Below are positions 21,690-30,855 of a stretch of DNA of 47,729 nt, piece by piece (positions within the stretch are counted from its first letter, which is position 1; every line of letters starts with the position of its first letter). The translations under genes were made by a program, and so were the position numbers. The stretch is from a virus, in IMG/VR virus record IMGVR_UViG_3300030117_001806, positions 1 through 47,729 of that record; one strand, given 5' to 3'. Below the pieces are notes generated by a model. The model worked only from the letters and a program-made list of their open reading frames with translations. It had not been told where the DNA came from and searched no databases.

Positions 21690-22181
21690 ATGAGTGAATA
21701 TATACATACTGATGGTACAATTAGAACAATGGATGCAATAAAAGCACATAATCCAAATACTAGTTTTCCAAAGGTTTTACCTTCTGAAATGCTAACACAA
21801 TTAGGTTATACAAGTATTCTTCCTTCTAATCCTCCTACTGCGTCCTCTGTCACAAAAATGATTGTTAGAGATGGAGCAGAAAAAAATAGTAATAATGAAT
21901 GGGTACAGAAGTGGAAAGAGGTTGATAGATTTTCTGATGTTAGTGGTGGAAAAACTAAATCAGAACAAGAAACAGATTATAAAAATGAACTTAATGCAAA
22001 TCAATTAGAGACAGTTCGTGCAACTAGAAAACCTCTATTAGAAGAAGCTGATTGGCAGATACACAAACTTGAAGATGCAAGTGGTAATACTACTGCATGG
22101 AGAACCTATAGACAGGCTTTGCGTGACGTAACAAAACAATCAGATATTTACAATATAAATTGGCCTACTAAACCATCTTAA
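21690..22181 (+). CDS. Tail fibre assembly chaperone-like protein
   Basis: A 163-residue protein behind TAGGAG. The C-terminal 65 residues carry a pattern of phage tail assembly chaperones (Phage_tail_APC/DUF4376-like): RKPLLEEADWQIHKLEDASG, then AWRTYRQALRDVTKQ and NINWPTKPS. The N-terminal part is polar. Such proteins help fibres fold or trimerise. It closes the fibre block; the sugar cassette promoter starts 14 bases later. Confidence 0.7.
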   Translation: MSEYIHTDGTIRTMDAIKAHNPNTSFPKVLPSEMLTQLGYTSILPSNPPTASSVTKMIVRDGAEKNSNNEWVQKWKEVDRFSDVSGGKTKSEQETDYKNELNANQLETVRATRKPLLEEADWQIHKLEDASGNTTAWRTYRQALRDVTKQSDIYNINWPTKPS

Positions 22182-22195
22182 CACACCACATTAAG

Positions 22196-22224
22196 TTGAC
22201 TATATAAACTAAATTCATTATAAT
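22196..22224 (+). promoter_or_regulatory. Near-consensus promoter of the sugar cassette
   Basis: TTGACT at 22196-22201, a 17-base spacer, and a perfect TATAAT at 22219-22224. It is the best promoter match in the late arm and lies between the chaperone stop and the first glycosyltransferase gene. It allows the cassette to be expressed independently of, and perhaps earlier than, the virion operon. Confidence 0.75.
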
Positions 22225-22230
22225 AAGCAC

Positions 22231-22246
22231 CAGAGTATTAACTCTG
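22231..22246 (+). promoter_or_regulatory. Inverted repeat at the cassette transcription start
   Basis: CAGAGT and ACTCTG are separated by ATTA. The repeat begins seven bases after the -10 box, at the predicted +1. It could be an operator or a 5' mRNA-protecting hairpin. The arm length is only 6 bp, so chance is possible. Confidence 0.45.
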
Positions 22247-22269
22247 TAACGATAATAATAAAGAAAAAA

Positions 22270-23196
22270 ATGAAAACTGTTTTTATGATTGATGGAGGAG
22301 CAGGGAGAGCAATTGCGGCAATTCCTGCTCTTATTAAATTTAGTAAAAGAAATACAAATTTTCAAGTTATGGTTAATGGTTGGGATACATTGTATTGGGG
22401 TATTCCAGAATTACATGATAAAGTTTTTAATCCAGATCAAAAAGGAGCTTTTGAGCAATTTTTTTTAGATGCTGATGAGGTTATTACACCTGAACCTTAT
22501 AGAGTGCCAGGATACTACAAACAAGAAAAATCTTTAGCTCAAGCTTTTGACACTTTAATTAACAATACTAATGAGCATGATGATTTAACTTTACCTGTTT
22601 TAACAACTAGCAAGATGGAAGAGATAAACGCTGCAAAGTTTATTCAACAGGTTAAGAAAGATCAACAAAAACAAAAAACAATTATTATCCAACCTTTTGG
22701 AAGATCAGCAGAAAGAATAGATGAAGAAATTATTGTGGATCAGTCTTCTCGTTCTATTAAGCTTGATACCTATTTAAAGTTAGTAAAAAAACTTACAACT
22801 AAATATAACGTTGTTCTTTTTGCAGAAAAACATTTTCATATGAAGGAGGACACGTACACTGTAAAACCAGAAGCTGATCTAAGACAATGGATTGCTTTTA
22901 TTGACGCATCAGATTATTTTATTGGGTGTGATTCATTAGGACAACATATAGCTCGTGCAGTCAATAAGCCAGGGACAGTTATCATAGGATCAACGTTTGC
23001 AGTCAATACAAGTTATCCTGACTTTTTTAATATCATTAAAAGAAAAGCACTTAGAAAATATTCACCTATTCGTATATCAGGTCTTGAGGGGCATTTAGCA
23101 GATCGAATAAACGAGAAGACTGTTGAATTTACTGAAAAGGAAATAAATACAATGTACGCTAACATTGTCAAAGATATCGAAAAGAAGGTAGAATAG
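22270..23196 (+). CDS. GT9-like glycosyltransferase
   Basis: A 308-residue GT-B-type enzyme. The N-terminal glycine loop (MIDGGAGRAIAAIPALIKF) and the C-terminal nucleotide-sugar site (GCDSLGQHIARAVNKPGTVI, then GST; Asp221) match family 9 glycosyltransferases, which include the ADP-heptose:LPS heptosyltransferases. It is slightly short for the family (about 310-350). First gene of the cassette, two codon-tight steps before the carbamoyltransferase. With HldE and HldD homologues downstream, an ADP-heptose donor is likely, but the acceptor is unknown. Confidence 0.7.
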   Translation: MKTVFMIDGGAGRAIAAIPALIKFSKRNTNFQVMVNGWDTLYWGIPELHDKVFNPDQKGAFEQFFLDADEVITPEPYRVPGYYKQEKSLAQAFDTLINNTNEHDDLTLPVLTTSKMEEINAAKFIQQVKKDQQKQKTIIIQPFGRSAERIDEEIIVDQSSRSIKLDTYLKLVKKLTTKYNVVLFAEKHFHMKEDTYTVKPEADLRQWIAFIDASDYFIGCDSLGQHIARAVNKPGTVIIGSTFAVNTSYPDFFNIIKRKALRKYSPIRISGLEGHLADRINEKTVEFTEKEINTMYANIVKDIEKKVE

Positions 23197-23197
23197 T

Positions 23198-24928
23198 ATG
23201 AATATATTAGCAGTTAATCCAAGTCATAATGGATCTGTCGCTTTACTAATTGATGGTGATTTAAAATTTTATATTGAAGAAGAAAGATTATCTCGTGAAA
23301 AGTATGATGCCAATCCTTTTAGAGGAATACTTGAAGCAATAAACTATCAAATAGATAACATCGTAATAGGAGGAACGACAATGCAACTTCCTTCTTTACC
23401 TTGGACAGGAGAAGATCCTTTTAGTGCTTTAGTCAGAAAACATTATCGTGGTGTAAAAGTAGGATACATAGGAAATGCTCATCATTTAGGTCACGCTGCA
23501 AACGCTTTTTACAATTCAGGATTTAAAGAAGCTGTTGCTGTTGTGGTGGATGGAGCAGGAACTAAACAGAACGTTAAAATACAAAAAGATTTTGTTAACT
23601 CTGGTTTTGAAACTGAAACTATTTTTGATTGTAACTACGAAGAAGAAGGTATTAAACAAGTTTACGCATCATTAGGTGGTAACTACGAAACTCAAAGAAT
23701 ACTAAGTAAATCTCACTTCATGGATTCAGCTATTACGATTGTAAAAGCTTATGAAGCTGTCACACACTACCTTGGTTTTGGTTTTATTGATGCAGGAAAA
23801 ACAATGGGGTTAGCTCCTTATGGAAAAAAATCAAATAAAATACCACCACTCTTCATTAAAGGAAGGGGTAATAAAAACGTTTTTCTTCCTAGCTATCCTG
23901 CAGGTGCTCTTGTCGATCACACTCGTTGGGAAGATTTGGAAATAACAGATCCAAAACAAACAACAGAATGGCATCATGATCCAAGTAAAGTAAGAGAGTC
24001 TTTCAAAGATTTAGCTTGGGCAGTGCAACAGGCCACACAAGAACTTGTTGGTGATCTAATTGAAAAAGCTTCAAATGATACCTCAAAGAAAAACGTTGTA
24101 CTGTCAGGAGGATACGCACTGAATTGTGTAGCAAACTATTATTATAAAAAACGTTTTCCTAATTTAAATATTTATATTGACCCTATTGCTCATGATGGTG
24201 GCACAGCGATTGGAATAGCTAAGTATGTGCATTACAGAGAAACAAAGGAAAAAAAGATACGTCCTTTAAAGTCTTTGTATTTAGGTGTTGATCGAAAAGA
24301 AAAGTATAAATCAAATGCTTTTGACCCTAATGCCAAAACAAAAAAAGTAAAACCTAGTGATATTGCAAAACTTATATCAGAAAAAAATATTGTTGCTTTG
24401 TTTCAGGGTCGTTCTGAAGCAGGACCTCGTGCATTAGGAAATCGTTCTATTCTTTATGATCCTACAGATCCAAAAGGAAAAGAAGCAGTTAATAAAGTAA
24501 AAGGAAGAGAATGGTTTAGACCTTTTGCAGGATCAATATTACAAGAGTATTTTGAAGAATGGTTTGAAACTCGTGGTTTAAAAGATTCACCTTACATGCT
24601 GTACGCTATGGATTTTAAACTTGAGAAGCATGGGGAAGTTCCTGCTATAACGCACGTAGATGGAACGTGTCGTATTCAAACTGTAACTAAAGAACAGAAT
24701 GCTTTGTATTACGAATTAATTGATGAGTTTAGAAAGATAAGTGGGGTACCTATTCTATTTAATACTAGCTTTAATTTAGCAGGAGAACCCTTGGTTGAAA
24801 CATTGCATGACGCTATTGAAACTGTAAAGAACAGTGGTATCTCTTATCTTTACTTACCAGAGGAGGGAACTCTTTTGAATTATTCTAACAATAATTCTAT
24901 TAAAAAGGAGGAGAAGAAAGCTGCTTAG
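23198..24928 (+). CDS. O-carbamoyltransferase, NodU/CmcH family
   Basis: A 576-residue enzyme that moves a carbamoyl group from carbamoyl phosphate, via carbamoyl-AMP, to a hydroxyl, usually on a sugar. The N-terminal Kae1-like domain shows NPSHNGSVALLIDG (8-21), the metal-site motif AHHLGH (94-99) and TMGLAPYG. The YrdC-like C-terminal domain shows GRSEAGPRALGNRSIL (404-419), REWFRPFAG and NTSFNLAGEP. Full length for the family and no broken motif. It starts one base after the glycosyltransferase stop. In pseudomonads a related activity gives 7-O-carbamoyl-heptose in the LPS core, a possible parallel. Confidence 0.92.
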   Translation: MNILAVNPSHNGSVALLIDGDLKFYIEEERLSREKYDANPFRGILEAINYQIDNIVIGGTTMQLPSLPWTGEDPFSALVRKHYRGVKVGYIGNAHHLGHAANAFYNSGFKEAVAVVVDGAGTKQNVKIQKDFVNSGFETETIFDCNYEEEGIKQVYASLGGNYETQRILSKSHFMDSAITIVKAYEAVTHYLGFGFIDAGKTMGLAPYGKKSNKIPPLFIKGRGNKNVFLPSYPAGALVDHTRWEDLEITDPKQTTEWHHDPSKVRESFKDLAWAVQQATQELVGDLIEKASNDTSKKNVVLSGGYALNCVANYYYKKRFPNLNIYIDPIAHDGGTAIGIAKYVHYRETKEKKIRPLKSLYLGVDRKEKYKSNAFDPNAKTKKVKPSDIAKLISEKNIVALFQGRSEAGPRALGNRSILYDPTDPKGKEAVNKVKGREWFRPFAGSILQEYFEEWFETRGLKDSPYMLYAMDFKLEKHGEVPAITHVDGTCRIQTVTKEQNALYYELIDEFRKISGVPILFNTSFNLAGEPLVETLHDAIETVKNSGISYLYLPEEGTLLNYSNNNSIKKEEKKAA

Positions 24929-24930
24929 AC

Positions 24931-25362
24931 ATGCTACAATTTTTACCTGTTAAAAAAATATTTGTCAATGGAGCTTTCGATGTTCTGCATTCTGGTCATT
25001 TAGATCTTTTTGATTTTGCTAGTAATTTAGGTGGTCATTTGATGGTTGCTATTGACACAGATAGGCGTATTGAATATAACAAGGGGAAAGGCAGGCCTTT
25101 TAATAACTTGATTACTCGTAAGCATTTAATGTCAAGATTAAAACCTGTCGATGAGGTAGCAGTGTTTGATACAGATGATGACTTAGTTCGTATTATACAA
25201 GAGTATCAACCTGATATAATGGTAAAAGGATCAGATTGGAAAGGGAAAAAAATTATAGGGGAAGACGATTGTAAAGATGTAATTTTTTATGAGAGATCGA
25301 ATGATCAGTCAACCAGTAAAACCCTTGAAGATTTTATTAATAGGAGACAGTTGTTACGATGA
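24931..25362 (+). CDS. HldE-type heptose-1-phosphate adenylyltransferase domain
   Basis: A 143-residue cytidylyltransferase-fold protein matching the C-terminal half of HldE (RfaE). It shows FVNGAFDVLHSGHLDLF with the HxGH site at residues 20-23, MVAIDTDRRI, and the DIMVKGSDWKGKKIIGED stretch. In the known pathway this domain adds AMP from ATP to heptose-1-phosphate to give ADP-heptose. Here it is a stand-alone gene placed before the kinase, the reverse of the fused order. About 74 bases of its end overlap the kinase gene. Confidence 0.85.
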   Translation: MLQFLPVKKIFVNGAFDVLHSGHLDLFDFASNLGGHLMVAIDTDRRIEYNKGKGRPFNNLITRKHLMSRLKPVDEVAVFDTDDDLVRIIQEYQPDIMVKGSDWKGKKIIGEDDCKDVIFYERSNDQSTSKTLEDFINRRQLLR

Positions 25363-26056
25363 GTATCATGTAGGCTCTGTCAAAAGAATAAGTCCTGAAG
25401 CTCCTGTTCCTATATTTGATTTAAATTCTACCACTATCAAAAAAGGAATGGCGTTTAATGTTTTCAATAACTTGGTAAGTCTTGGTGTAAGTGTAGATAT
25501 TTTAACAGAATTTTATGAACGCAAGCACAGATATATTGATAGTAAAACTGGACAACAATTACTACGAGTTGATGAAAAGATTGAACCTGAGTTTATTGAT
25601 ACAAACAGATATCCTATAAAAGATTATGATGCTGTTATTATATCAGACTATAACAAAGGTTTTGTAAAAGACTACACGATTGAAGACACTATAAAGAAAG
25701 CAAACTCGCCAATCTTTGTAGACACAAAAAGAAAAGATTTGTCTATCTTTGATGGTTGTTTTGTTAAAATTAATCAGTACGAGTATTCTCAAGTAACGCA
25801 TTTAACAAAAGATTTAATAGTTACCTATGGATCAAAAAAGGTACAATATAAAAATAGAACATATATACCACCAAAGGTAGAAACGTATGATGTTTGTGGA
25901 GCAGGAGATACTTTTTTAGCAGCTCTAGTTTTTGAATACATTAGTAAACAAAATATAGATAGTGCAATAAAGTTTGCTATGAAAGCGGCATCAATTACAG
26001 TACAACACATAGGAGTATACGCCCCCACACTAAGAGAAGTAACAAATGAGAAATAA
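25289..26056 (+). CDS. HldE-type heptose-7-phosphate kinase domain (PfkB/ribokinase)
   Basis: A 255-residue ribokinase-fold protein matching the N-terminal half of HldE. ILLIGDSCYDEYHVG opens the fold, followed by the HldE-like signature KRISPEAPVPIF. DVCGAGDTFLAAL carries the anion hole and catalytic Asp207. It would phosphorylate C1 of heptose-7-phosphate. It is about 60 residues shorter than typical HldE kinase domains. The start may be the ATG at 25289 or 25301; either overlaps the adenylyltransferase gene, and the end overlaps the cupin gene by 11 bases. Confidence 0.82.
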   Translation: MRDRMISQPVKPLKILLIGDSCYDEYHVGSVKRISPEAPVPIFDLNSTTIKKGMAFNVFNNLVSLGVSVDILTEFYERKHRYIDSKTGQQLLRVDEKIEPEFIDTNRYPIKDYDAVIISDYNKGFVKDYTIEDTIKKANSPIFVDTKRKDLSIFDGCFVKINQYEYSQVTHLTKDLIVTYGSKKVQYKNRTYIPPKVETYDVCGAGDTFLAALVFEYISKQNIDSAIKFAMKAASITVQHIGVYAPTLREVTNEK

Positions 26057-26402
26057 AGGATTTGTTGAAAAGGGGTGGGGTTCTGAATTTATATTTGCTA
26101 CCAATGATAAGTACTGTGGTAAATTTTTAAATTTTGTAAAAGGTGCAAAGTTTTCTATGCACTTTCATAAAGAAAAGGATGAGACTTGGTATGTTTTTAA
26201 AGGGAAATTTAAAGTTATTTGGGTTGATACAAAAGATGCTAGTGTGCATGAAGAAATTATTTCTAAAGGTGATATCTGGAGGAATAAACCTCTTGTGCCG
26301 CATCAAATCATTTGTGAAGAAAAAGGATTCATAATTGAAGTTTCAACACCTGATTCTGTAGAAGATAATTACAGGATACAAAAAGGTGACAGCCAAAAAT
26401 GA
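26046..26402 (+). CDS. Cupin, sugar-isomerase-like
   Basis: A 118-residue single-domain cupin. Motif 1 is complete: Gly33, His39, His41, Glu46, Gly53 (GAKFSMHFHKEKDETWYVFK then G). Motif 2 is GDIWRNKPLVPHQI with His85. The ending TPDSVEDNYRIQKGDSQK is typical of cupins next to sugar genes in marine phages. These resemble the cupin domain of phosphomannose isomerases. It might isomerise or epimerise a sugar phosphate or nucleotide-sugar for this cassette. The overlaps (11 bases before, ATGA after) show coupling. Confidence 0.72.
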   Translation: MRNKGFVEKGWGSEFIFATNDKYCGKFLNFVKGAKFSMHFHKEKDETWYVFKGKFKVIWVDTKDASVHEEIISKGDIWRNKPLVPHQIICEEKGFIIEVSTPDSVEDNYRIQKGDSQK

Positions 26403-27166
26403 AGATTGTTGTCACTGGGAGCAAAGGGTTTATTGGCAAAAATTTAGTCAAAGCTCTAGAAAAGAAACACGAAGTAATAGAAAACGAAGTAGGAGTATTT
26501 CCTAAAGTAAAAGATGCAGATTGGGTAGTCCATCTTGGGGCGATTAGTTCAACAACAGCTACAGATTTAAACGCTATCTACAGACAAAACTTAGAATTTT
26601 CAATTCGTTTGTATGAGAAGTGTATAAAACATAAAGTAAATTTTCAGTTTTCTAGTAGTGCTTCAGTGTATGGGTTGAAGTCAGAGTTTAAAGAGACTTC
26701 TATTCTTTCTCCTCAAAATCATTATGCTCGTAGTAAAGCAATGTTTGAGAGGTACATTGAACTAAGGAATGCCCCTATTAGAACTCAAGTGTTTCGATAC
26801 TTTAATGTGTATGGGCAACACGAAGAACATAAAGGTGAACAGGCGAGTCCACAAACAAAGTTTTACAGAGAAGCAAAGAGAACTGGTAAAATAAAAATTT
26901 TTAAAAACTCTCGTAAGTATTATAGAGATTTTATAAATGTCGATCAAATAGTAGATTATCATCAAAAGTTTTTTAGTATTAAACAATCTGGTATTTGGAA
27001 TTTTGGAACAGGGAAAGAAAAAAGTTTTTATGATGTCGCAATGGATGTAGCTGTTAAAACAAAAGCGACACTTACTTACACAGACATGCCCCAAGAACTA
27101 AAAGGAAATTATCAAGAGTATACAAAAGCAGATACAACAAAACTTTTTAAAACTCTTTCACTATAG
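26399..27166 (+). CDS. HldD-like ADP-heptose 6-epimerase (SDR)
   Basis: A 255-residue extended SDR protein. The NAD(P) loop is GSKGFIG (7-13) and the catalytic pair Y109xxxK113 lies in HYARSKAMFE. Many HldD-specific stretches are present: HLGAISSTT, RYFNVYGQHEEHKG (133-146), KYYRDFINVDQ, GIWNFGTGKEKSF, and MPQELKGNYQEYTKADTTKL. HldD converts ADP-D-glycero- to ADP-L-glycero-D-manno-heptose. It is about 55 residues shorter than the E. coli enzyme, mainly after the Rossmann start and at the C-terminus. It ends the cassette. Confidence 0.85.
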   Translation: MKIVVTGSKGFIGKNLVKALEKKHEVIENEVGVFPKVKDADWVVHLGAISSTTATDLNAIYRQNLEFSIRLYEKCIKHKVNFQFSSSASVYGLKSEFKETSILSPQNHYARSKAMFERYIELRNAPIRTQVFRYFNVYGQHEEHKGEQASPQTKFYREAKRTGKIKIFKNSRKYYRDFINVDQIVDYHQKFFSIKQSGIWNFGTGKEKSFYDVAMDVAVKTKATLTYTDMPQELKGNYQEYTKADTTKLFKTLSL

Positions 27167-27177
27167 GAATGTAAAGA

Positions 27178-30100
27178 ATGGCACTAGATACCTCGAACAT
27201 AAAATCAGATTACATTAAGAAAGATGGTGTGTTTAATCTCACTCCAATGAGAGTTGAAGATTTATCTCAAGCAGAGATCAACGCTTTGAATCAAAGTGAT
27301 AGACATCAAATAATGGGTGATGGAACAATTGTTTTTCTTGATAATGATGGGTCAACTCAAATCATTCCAAAAAGTAAGACTGATCCTAGCACTGTTGATT
27401 TATCTTTAGTAGATTCTGAAGCGATAAAAAAAGCAGCTGATGTAGTTTATCTATCTATGACCACTGGTGTAAGTAGTGCAGAGATGAACACTGTTTATGA
27501 AAGTTTAGGTATTGACCCCAACGCTACAAACGCTCATAGTCTTAGAGACTCTATTTTAGGAGCGGCAGGATATTCTCAAGGTAGTACATCAGACTACTAT
27601 GGAACTAATGAAGGTCCTTCTGATGCAGGAGCTGCTATTCTATATGAACGTAATAAACAACAACCAACTGAAGAACAAATTATAGCGGCAGGTTTAGATC
27701 CTTCTCAAGTTTCTGTTGTTAATAGTAATGCGGCAAACATTGCGTATCTTAGACAAGAGATGTTGAGATCAGGAAATCCTTTAGACTCAACTCTAGGAAT
27801 AACAAATTTAACTGGTATAGGTGGAGGTAATTTATCTCCTTTTGGTCAAACAGGTGTTTCAAATATTGCAGAAATTCGAGCTCTTAATGACTATAATAAA
27901 AACATTTATGGTGCAAACAATCCTAACTTTAAAAGTTCTGCTCAATCTCTTGATATCTTTGAATGGGATTTAGAACCAAGTGGCCAAGGATCAGGAGGAA
28001 CTGGTGGCACAGGTTCTGGGGGAACTGATGGTACTATCAACATCGATGGTGGTGGTGGTGGAACAGGAGGTGGCACTGGTTCTGGAGATGGTGTAAGTCC
28101 TGGAGGTAGTGGAGCTATTGGTGGCACAGGGTTCACTAGCACTCCTACTATATCAACTGTTACCCCTGTTTACGATCAAGGAAAGACAGGCGTTAGTGAA
28201 GTTACAATGCCAGATTATACAGGTGGTATAACAAATCAAGAAGCTGCGTTTACTGCTAGAGAAGCTGAATCTAAAAAACTTTACAAACCTCAAACAATTG
28301 CAGAACAAGAAGACGCAGGTACAGCACCTGCATTTGAAAACGTAATGTATCGTAATCGATTTGGTCAAACTCAAATCATACAACATATTAATGGTCAGCC
28401 TAGTCAACCTATTCCTATAGGTTATACTAGAGTTCAAGGTTTTGGTACTCAAACACAAGGTACTCAAACACAAGGTACTCAAACACAAAGTCAGTATCAA
28501 GGAGGTATAATCCAAGGATTTAGTGATGCTAATTCTGAGCAGGAATCTCAAATTGATGAAACTACTACTCCTGCTCCCACTGTCAATCAACCTTTAAACT
28601 TTCAGCCAGGTGGTGAAGTTGAAGAACAAGAAGATGGTGGTTTTAAAATTAAGTATCCTGATGGTACTTTTTCACAAACTTATGATACAGCAGAAAATGC
28701 AGGAATGGCGAATCAAGCAGGTTTGTCCTCACTAGGTCTTCCTGATTATACAACTTATTTAGAACAACAAGGTGTTAACACAGATCTTCCAGGGTATGAT
28801 CAAACTGCCTATCAAGCAGCTTATCAAACGTACATTACAGATCCTAATACTTTAACTGCTATTCAACAGGCAGCTGCTGCTGCTGCAACACAGCCAGAAA
28901 CAGGCACGATTAACCAAGAAATATCACAAGAAGAGAGGGTGATAACTGAAGAAGATTTAGATCAAGCACAAAAAGATTTAGTTGGTCAAGCATTTGTAAA
29001 TCCTGCAGGTGCTATCGCTGCTTCTCCTGTTAGTTATCTTGATCCAAATGCGGCAGGCACAGTTATGGAATCAGATACAGGGGCTGCTTTACCTACTGCT
29101 CCTATTATCACAGATGATCAGGTGGCTCAAATTGATAAAGCTAGTACTGCAGACATGCCTACTAAAACTGGTGCAGGTCAATACGATGCGAATCAAGCAA
29201 CAGCTGCAGTAAAAAAAGCAGTGGATGGTCTTCAAGAGCCTATTAAAACTAGCGCTGCAGAAGCAGGTTTTATTCCACCTCCTCCAGATGCTCCTGTCAC
29301 ACAGGCTATAGAAAGATTTTTTAATCCTACGACAGGACAAGAAGTGACAGTTATGACAGGAGGATACACTGTTCCTGAAGGATTTCAAAAAGTAGGAGCT
29401 GGTGTTGATTTAAAAGAAGCATTTCCAGATACTTTTACTAAAGGGATGACTGCTGCTCAAGGGAGTGTAACTAAATCAGTTACAGGAGAGGTGCAAGAAA
29501 GACAAAAAATAGATCCTGCTACTAATAAACCAATGTTTGATGCTAATGGTAATCCTATCATGGAAGCTTACACAGGTGTTTCTGATCTTGATGCAGCAAC
29601 AAGTTCATCAGTCGATGTTACAGGAGCACCAACGAGAACGATGGAGACTGGTGAGAAAATTTCAGAAGATGATCCTACTGGTGTTGATCAAACCAGAATA
29701 GATGAAGAGTTAAAAAAGTCAGAAGCTGCATCTGTCAAAGATGAGCTTGATACTTTACTTGGTGAATTTGAATCTGGTAATACTCCTGCATGGGCGAAAG
29801 GTGCTATGAGAAGAGCGCAACAAGAACTTGCAGCTCGTGGTATTAGCTCCTCTTCAATGGCAGGAGAAGCAGTTGTTCAAGCCATGATAGAAGCTTCTCT
29901 TCCTATTGCTTCAATCGATGCTTCTAATAAACAAGCAATGGCTTTAGAAAAAGCAAGACAAAGAGCTACATTTCTAGGTCAAGAGTTTGATCAAGCCTAT
30001 CAAACTAAAGTAACTAACGCTGCTAAAGTTTCTGAAATTGCAAACATAAACTTTACTGCTCAACAACAGATTGCACTAGAAAATTCTAAAGCTTCAAACA

Positions 30101-30855
30101 CAATGGCTCTGCAAAACTTGAGTAATGAACAAGCACTTGTCATGGCTGAAGCAGCTCAAATATCACAACTTGAAATTACAAATTTAAACAATAGACAGAA
30201 AGCTCAAGTTGAGAATGCTCAAAACTTTTTACAAATGGATATGGCTAATTTAGAAGCTGAACAACAAACAACTTTGTTTAAACAACAGTCTGTGGTCAAT
30301 ACAATCCTTAGTGATCAAGCTGCCACTAACGCAGCCAAACAGTTCAACGCAGCCAATCAACAACAGAACGATCAGTTCTTTGCGAATCTTGGAGCTTCAG
30401 TTGGACAGTTCAATGCAGCTCAATTGAATGCAGTAAAACAATTCAATGCTGATTCAGTCAATTCTGTGTTAGAGTTTAATTCTAAAATTCAAAATCAAAG
30501 GGAATTATTCAACGCACAAAATGCTCTTGTTGTTGCTCAAGCCAATGCACAGTGGAGACAAAATACGCAAACTTTAAATACAGCTGCTGCGAATGAATCA
30601 AACATGGAATACACCAGACTACTCAATGGTTTGACTATGACCACGCTTGATGAAATTTTACAAAGAGAAAGAGATACGTTATCAATGGCGTTTCAAATAT
30701 CAGAAAATTCTGCTAATAGAGCTAACGCAATTGTTCTTGAAAAATTGGCGGCAGATGCTACACTAGACGCTGCGACACTACAGGCAGAGCTAGATGCGTC
30801 AGCTAGTGCAGGTGATTTTCTGAAAGAAGTTTTTTTAAAAATATTAGATTTATAG
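27178..30855 (+). CDS. Large internal virion protein, coiled-coil type
   Basis: A 1225-residue protein. The N-terminal part is mixed and includes a Gly-rich linker (about 262-320) and a Thr/Gln repeat (about 423-437). Near residue 870 a conserved block TPAWAKGAMRRAQQELAARG begins a long helical region rich in Asn, Gln and Ala (ARQFNA-like words: AAKQFNAANQQQND, GQFNAAQLNAVKQFNA). I know this C-terminal type from uncultured marine podoviruses. It is probably an ejection or inner-tail protein forming a long helical bundle. Work on a cell-membrane channel is inference. Confidence 0.72.
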   Translation: MALDTSNIKSDYIKKDGVFNLTPMRVEDLSQAEINALNQSDRHQIMGDGTIVFLDNDGSTQIIPKSKTDPSTVDLSLVDSEAIKKAADVVYLSMTTGVSSAEMNTVYESLGIDPNATNAHSLRDSILGAAGYSQGSTSDYYGTNEGPSDAGAAILYERNKQQPTEEQIIAAGLDPSQVSVVNSNAANIAYLRQEMLRSGNPLDSTLGITNLTGIGGGNLSPFGQTGVSNIAEIRALNDYNKNIYGANNPNFKSSAQSLDIFEWDLEPSGQGSGGTGGTGSGGTDGTINIDGGGGGTGGGTGSGDGVSPGGSGAIGGTGFTSTPTISTVTPVYDQGKTGVSEVTMPDYTGGITNQEAAFTAREAESKKLYKPQTIAEQEDAGTAPAFENVMYRNRFGQTQIIQHINGQPSQPIPIGYTRVQGFGTQTQGTQTQGTQTQSQYQGGIIQGFSDANSEQESQIDETTTPAPTVNQPLNFQPGGEVEEQEDGGFKIKYPDGTFSQTYDTAENAGMANQAGLSSLGLPDYTTYLEQQGVNTDLPGYDQTAYQAAYQTYITDPNTLTAIQQAAAAAATQPETGTINQEISQEERVITEEDLDQAQKDLVGQAFVNPAGAIAASPVSYLDPNAAGTVMESDTGAALPTAPIITDDQVAQIDKASTADMPTKTGAGQYDANQATAAVKKAVDGLQEPIKTSAAEAGFIPPPPDAPVTQAIERFFNPTTGQEVTVMTGGYTVPEGFQKVGAGVDLKEAFPDTFTKGMTAAQGSVTKSVTGEVQERQKIDPATNKPMFDANGNPIMEAYTGVSDLDAATSSSVDVTGAPTRTMETGEKISEDDPTGVDQTRIDEELKKSEAASVKDELDTLLGEFESGNTPAWAKGAMRRAQQELAARGISSSSMAGEAVVQAMIEASLPIASIDASNKQAMALEKARQRATFLGQEFDQAYQTKVTNAAKVSEIANINFTAQQQIALENSKASNTMALQNLSNEQALVMAEAAQISQLEITNLNNRQKAQVENAQNFLQMDMANLEAEQQTTLFKQQSVVNTILSDQAATNAAKQFNAANQQQNDQFFANLGASVGQFNAAQLNAVKQFNADSVNSVLEFNSKIQNQRELFNAQNALVVAQANAQWRQNTQTLNTAAANESNMEYTRLLNGLTMTTLDEILQRERDTLSMAFQISENSANRANAIVLEKLAADATLDAATLQAELDASASAGDFLKEVFLKILDL
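28444..28488 (+). repeat. Three exact 15-bp tandem repeats
   Basis: GGTACTCAAACACAA occurs three times in a row, encoding GTQTQ each time, inside the large virion protein gene. The perfect DNA identity implies recent slippage or conversion. Copy number may vary between related phages. Confidence 0.9.

Follow-up and report, generated by a model that had tools for sequence, protein, structure and literature searches.

Why would a marine podovirus carry a run of sugar-handling genes among its tail genes? The question is raised by IMG/VR record IMGVR_UViG_3300030117_001806, a linear virus record of 47,729 bases that was analysed in full and is called the window here. When its open reading frames (ORFs) were read, six intact frames on the plus strand (22270-27166) were found to encode, in order, a GT9-like glycosyltransferase, a NodU/TobZ-type carbamoyltransferase, HldC, HldA, a cupin and an HldD-type epimerase. 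We consider it probable that this cassette specifies a phage-borne pathway to ADP-L-glycero-beta-D-manno-heptose together with two decorating enzymes. On balance, we also favour the view that the cupin, with its KxWGxE, YCGK and SxHxHxxKxE motifs, is a metal-dependent sedoheptulose-7-phosphate isomerase, a non-homologous counterpart of GmhA in marine phages and DPANN archaea, with the phages bringing a near-complete pathway to hosts that make no heptose. The isomerase reading of the cupin is the new element of this analysis; the gene set itself was already known.

The enzymes most readily tied to heptose are HldC (D-glycero-beta-D-manno-heptose-1-phosphate adenylyltransferase, 24931-25362), HldA (D-glycero-beta-D-manno-heptose-7-phosphate kinase in a short form of 255 amino acids, 25289-26056, with a possible start at 25301) and the HldD-type ADP-heptose 6-epimerase (26399-27166). 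For each, the best NCBIfam model was a heptose enzyme: TIGR02199 for HldC (5e-28), TIGR02198 for HldA (3e-39) and TIGR02197 for HldD (4e-61). Comparison with the Protein Data Bank (PDB) aligned HldA with the HldA entry 4e84 (5e-14) and the epimerase with 1eq2 (4e-38). Across 50 copies of HldC, the HxGH motif and other E. coli HldE C-domain residues showed at least 90% conservation, and the RISPEAPVP and GAGD motifs of HldA are shared by the window and its relatives. In the HldD-like protein, S116, Y140, K144, N169, K178 and R209 were retained in 45 of 45 copies and Y272 in 44 of 45. Judged from their sequences, the three phage proteins are divergent and likely work like the ADP-heptose pathway enzymes.

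Several features weigh against this assignment. None of the phage HldA, HldC or HldD proteins reached its NCBIfam equivalog cut-off; those of the window scored 97.7 bits against 181.5 for HldC, 135 against 345 for HldA and 207 against 274.6 for HldD. HldA and HldD are shortened, the latter in its NADP-binding domain, where the segment that carries D31, N32, K38 and K53 in E. coli is missing. Nor is the Hld pathway complete in the window: a SIS_2 search detected no GmhA, and no GmhB or other HAD homologue was found across its length, a result by which a GmhB or small HAD protein concealed elsewhere in the window was rejected. As the cut-offs were not reached and the proteins are short, these divergent relatives could be making another nucleotide sugar, such as an ADP-hexose or a heptose isomer, a view that the kinship of the cupin family with phosphomannose isomerase also favours. 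We regard it as improbable, given that the RISPEAPVP, HxGH and HldD S/Y/K and K178 residues were retained, that relatives of the cassette carry a GmhB-type phosphatase gene (below), and that archaeal operons with the same cupin include HldA and HldC above the cut-offs. Compared with the bacterial Hld pathway (GmhA-HldE-GmhB-HldD) and its GT9 heptosyltransferases, the conserved active sites predict the same chemistry for the cassette, but HldA and HldC, fused in bacterial HldE, are separate and in reverse order, the proteins are shorter, a cupin stands in the place of GmhA and the window has no GmhB.

Relatives of the cassette were sought in viral contigs with the cassette kinase, and 43 loci were obtained. 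At least 30 of them had the complete set of six genes in unchanged order, which rules out chance. Most of these six-gene loci lay between genes recognisable as those of HMO-type fibre and tail regions, and the four relative contigs that were sampled were HMO-type by major capsid protein (MCP, 76-87% to the window), PolA (75-80%) or terminase. A gene for a GmhB-type heptose-bisphosphate phosphatase was present on the opposite strand, between the carbamoyltransferase and HldC genes, in all 34 relatives in which that interval was visible, and the 17 proteins scored matched TIGR00213 with E values of 1e-17 to 1e-27. The corresponding interval in the window is 2 bp.

Spacing within the cassette is tight, with gaps of 1 bp and 2 bp followed by overlaps of 74, 11 and 4 nt, and the 74-nt overlap of HldC and HldA (24931-26056) uses different frames. 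Similar overlaps were seen in the relatives (50-74 nt for HldC/HldA, 4-11 nt for HldA/cupin and usually 4 nt for cupin/HldD). A preliminary description of this DNA had proposed a coupled block of six genes, and the intact ORFs, the close spacing and the order kept in at least 30 contigs bear it out. The same data bear on the suggestion, raised in print for cyanophage lipopolysaccharide (LPS) genes (PMC3037559), that such clusters are non-functional 'stuffer' DNA. The intact frames, the catalytic residues and overlaps conserved across tens of divergent genomes, and an ordinary phage genome size leave that explanation very little room.

The cupin (26046-26402) matched Cupin_2 (2e-7), and its predicted structure was a confident jelly-roll cupin fold with a predicted local distance difference test (pLDDT) score of 93.8. 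It has no SIS domain, the fold of GmhA, and is proposed as an analogue of that enzyme, not as a member of its family. The phosphomannose isomerase reaction has its seven-carbon counterpart in the conversion of sedoheptulose-7-phosphate to D-glycero-D-manno-heptose-7-phosphate. Type II phosphomannose isomerases (the C-terminal domain of GMP-PMI) and other cupin ketol-isomerases share with the cassette protein its fold, conserved HxH...E...H metal-type ligands and a KxWGxE-like motif; the cassette cupin differs in being linked to heptose, not GDP-mannose, genes. Its sequence profile reached D-lyxose isomerase, and the archaeal cupin matched the isomerase half of GMP-PMI. YCGK and SxHxH were found in all 19 cupins with a heptose context, and many other homologues had Y[V/A]GK or QxH. 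No GmhA or SIS protein was found in the 25 phage records searched, and the cupin was present in all phage records checked. A literature search for a cupin in heptose synthesis returned nothing relevant.

When genome contigs were scanned with the cupin, cellular operons of the form cupin-HldD-HldA-GmhB-HldC were found in Woesearchaeota and Patescibacteria, some with GmhB and HldC fused and one with a cupin-HldD fusion (L133). In the Woesearchaeota operon L128, the cupin is carried together with HldA and HldC that score above the NCBIfam cut-offs. A NodU-type carbamoyltransferase gene adjoins this operon (L128:7334-9103, minus strand), as in the phages. The occurrence of cupin and GmhA was compared in the archaeal class of L128 (DPANN, 234 genomes), in which 27 genomes had a strong HldC match (E<1e-40). 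With thresholds of E<1e-30 for the cupin and E<1e-50 for GmhA, each surrounded by a wide score gap, 12 of the 27 had the cupin only, 10 had GmhA only, 5 had neither and none had both (Fisher p=3.6e-4, a statistic that ignores phylogeny and genome incompleteness). Among 20 HldC-negative archaeal genomes tested, the cupin was absent from all (p 4.2e-4 by Fisher's test for cupin with HldC). Archaeal fusions joined HldA to the cupin (L158-L161) and GmhB to the cupin and HldC (L162). The cupin also stood in archaeal heptose operons (L166-L168), and in L169-L172 GmhA sits among the same heptose genes instead.

There are counterweights to the isomerase reading. The exclusion thresholds were chosen after the score gaps had been seen, and the replicate in Patescibacteria had too few genomes with strong HldC to count either way (one genome with cupin only, two with strong GmhA only and none with both). 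For three of the 12 archaeal genomes with the cupin (L163-L165), the neighbourhood of the cupin gene yielded no heptose gene. The fold search matched the whole cupin superfamily and singled out no function; assignment from the fold alone was rejected, since the comparison does not discriminate. Cupins are functionally diverse, and these points would also suit a tailoring enzyme that acts on the sugar as an epimerase, mutarotase or oxygenase, with GmhA supplied by the host. The PHROG name 'cysteine dioxygenase' would be of this kind, but it was rejected, as the gene context gives it no support. A tailoring role is possible but doubtful in our judgement, given the exclusion of GmhA, the fusions with several pathway enzymes and the lack of GmhA in the phage records.

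With the cupin as isomerase, the pathway would open with conversion of host sedoheptulose-7-phosphate to D-glycero-D-manno-heptose-7-phosphate, the cupin replacing GmhA, a step proposed from comparative genomics. By homology and conserved active sites, HldA would then phosphorylate C1, and, once the 7-phosphate had been removed, HldC would make ADP-D,D-heptose and HldD would epimerise it to ADP-L,D-heptose. The phosphatase of the intermediate step would be GmhB in the relatives, as suggested by the neighbouring gene; the window has no GmhB and would therefore depend on a host enzyme. Finally, the GT9-like protein may move the heptose to an acceptor, and the carbamoyltransferase may carbamoylate the sugar or its glycan.

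The GT9-like protein (22270-23196; phrog_8954), a probable heptosyltransferase, matched Glyco_transf_9 (PF01075) at 1.5e-4, slightly below the cut-off. Its AlphaFold2 model (pLDDT 78) was closest to PDB entry 3tov (Z 20.4), TibC (19.1), WaaF (18.9) and WaaC (17.6), all of family GT9. Plant NDH-complex subunits followed at Z about 17, and the best match outside these two groups scored 12.6. The GT9 fold is clear in the model, and the positions of WaaC D261 and H266 were kept in the window and its relatives. Against a heptosyltransferase stands the position of WaaC Asp13, which is Arg (R13, motif GGAGR) in all copies examined, so that the N-terminal catalytic Asp of GT9 heptosyltransferases is lacking. 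From the modelled fold, heptose transfer by this protein is plausible.

The carbamoyltransferase (23198-24928; phrog_1601, 'Nol-like') matched PF16861 (1.1e-61) and PF02543 (5.5e-23), both above the cut-off. An alignment with PDB 7xb6 ran the whole length, covering residues 9-553 (545 residues, E 1e-51), and both the Kae1-like N domain and the C-terminal domain of NodU/TobZ O-carbamoyltransferases are present. That its substrate is heptose we infer from gene adjacency alone.

The enzyme identities given in the preliminary description (GT9-like, NodU-type, both HldE activities, cupin and HldD-like) were upheld by homology, active sites and fold. Structure prediction and hidden Markov model searches, two of the checks it had proposed, recovered the families and the GT9 and cupin folds, but the HldA, HldC and HldD equivalog and Glyco_transf_9 cut-offs were missed. 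It had also reported the catalytic motifs of each enzyme, which agrees with the conservation of catalytic residues in the window and in relatives. ADP-heptose synthesis is well supported by the motif-level homology of HldC, HldA and HldD, by GmhB in relatives and by the same set in cellular operons. The proposed addition of a carbamoylated heptose survives in part: transfer accords with the GT9 fold, and carbamoylation of heptose keeps the standing given above. Its analogy with the 7-O-carbamoyl-heptose of pseudomonads is unspecific, because the phage is of the marine HMO-2011 type. The split and reversed HldA and HldC, the missing GmhA and GmhB, the replaced GT9 Asp and the role of the cupin are points absent from that description.

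The same gene set occurs in T4-like cyanophages (P-SSM2 genes 307-313, S-SSM7, S-CAM1, S-CAM3 and Sf-FS3), whose LPS or sugar clusters have homologous GT9-like, carbamoyltransferase, HldC, HldA, cupin and HldD genes in much the same order. The cassette is therefore a variant of a known set in a new phage lineage. Sullivan et al. (2010) observed that T4-GCs 304, 305, 307 and 308 are found together in P-SSM2, S-SM2 and S-SSM7, and raised a possible functional link among these 'LPS genes' (PMC3037559); according to the P-SSM2 record they are HldC, HldA, the cupin and HldD. In Iyer et al. (2021) such clusters appear as sugar and capsule systems, with epimerases, cupin 'sugar isomerases', PfkB kinases and carbamoyltransferases among the genes listed (PMC7824862). 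Heptose was not mentioned in the searched text of either paper, and the text of a survey of HMO-2011-type phages (PMC9038755) is silent on epimerase, carbamoyl, glycosyl and cupin genes. The window differs from the cyanophages in lineage, as an HMO-2011-type podovirus of about 50 kb, and in having HldD on the same strand as the rest of the cassette; its relatives carry GmhB, and cyanophages carry a small EcbF/BcbF-type HAD phosphatase instead. The latter protein, PSSM2_311 of P-SSM2 (L006:7098-7442) and its homologues, is annotated 'phosphoheptose isomerase' and has a DxDGT motif; its reading as GmhA was rejected, it is probably the phosphatase of the pathway, and the annotation should be corrected to HAD phosphatase. 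The cupin prediction would in turn name an enzyme for the missing step in the archaeal and phage heptose pathways.

Other arrangements were also seen. In another phage group (L042-L047), the same enzymes lie amid other sugar and methyltransferase-like genes, with neither carbamoyltransferase nor GmhB. Two large contigs of a Neomarinimicrobiota metagenome-assembled genome (MAG; L058 and L059) contain HldA-like, HldD, cupin and GmhB genes with two 2-oxoglutarate-oxygenase-like genes and look phage-derived. Some MAG contigs in our comparisons are probably phage: cyanophage-like heptose blocks in L134, L101, L102, L111 and L126, labelled for example 'Rhodobacteraceae', 'Planctomycetaceae' and 'Thaumarchaeota', are probable phage contamination, and MAG cupin matches with whole blocks of this type (L101, L111, L126 and L134) were handled as probable phage and not as host.

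The heptose product probably ends on a surface, either a host glycan or the fibres of the phage itself. To the first use, remodelling of the surface glycan of a non-heptose host so that adsorption of other phages is blocked, we would give roughly even chances. Next comes decoration of the virion, in which the GT9-like enzyme would place ADP-heptose on the tail fibres or other fibre-region proteins, followed by carbamoylation. This draws on the location of the cassette, with a fibre-assembly chaperone gene on one side and a large gene of the tail region on the other, and on the model, which is about as near to the protein heptosyltransferase TibC (Z 19.1) as to the LPS heptosyltransferases (18.9 and 17.6). 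Tail-fibre loci often take in unrelated cargo, however, and the cyanophage block is also found away from fibre genes, beside photosynthesis-type or neck genes; we hold this second use to be a tentative option.

Remodelling of the host surface was considered in the light of likely hosts. Published host assignments for low-GC HMO-type subgroups point to SAR11 or Roseobacter (PMC9038755). In Rhodobacteraceae, one likely host family, HldC was over the cut-off in none of 198 genomes; besides two weakly matching genomes, the best match came from a MAG in which a cyanophage-like contig is also present. With the family nearly devoid of HldC, the phage may import the pathway. The SAR11 order fits less well, as HldC is patchy there, with strong matches (E<1e-40) in 7 of 147 genomes. 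Cyanobacterial LPS is without heptose (PMC4390846, PMC4515613), and superinfection exclusion has been proposed for P-SSM2 (PMC2984593). A common theme may be that phages bring heptose synthesis to hosts that lack it. If so, HMO-2011-type phages, described as dominant and widely distributed in the ocean (PMC9038755), and cyanophages would give heptose chemistry to bacteria without it, and the host surface met by other phages and grazers would change.

By sequence the window is an HMO-2011-type podovirus, with MCP at 77% and PolA at 74% to CRP-9 and MCP at 71% to HMO-2011. The cultured phages CRP-9 and CRP-13 have no cassette, and in both, large genes of the tail region come immediately after the fibre-assembly chaperone gene. 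The chaperone that forms the upstream border in the window lies at 21690-22181 (plus strand; PF16778, 5e-13), and the large tail-region ORF at the downstream border at 27178-30855 (plus strand), with homologues 3' of the cassette in most HMO-type relatives. A megablast of the cassette region against phages gave no match. GC content is 32-34% in the cassette area and 34-41% elsewhere in the structural half, in keeping with acquisition of the cassette.

A promoter-like site, TTGACT-17-TATAAT (22196-22224, plus strand), agrees with the consensus at 11 of 12 positions, is the top site in the region and lies 46 nt 5' of the first cassette gene. The overall count of such sites was 20, against 25.2 in shuffles, and because the count is not above the shuffles this promoter is only suggestive. 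The start of 22196 previously given for the cassette is the -35 element of this site, the first gene beginning at 22270; the end at 27166 was confirmed. A perfect small hairpin, CAGAGTTAATACTCTG (minus strand, 22231-22246), lies downstream of the promoter-like site and ahead of the first cassette gene.

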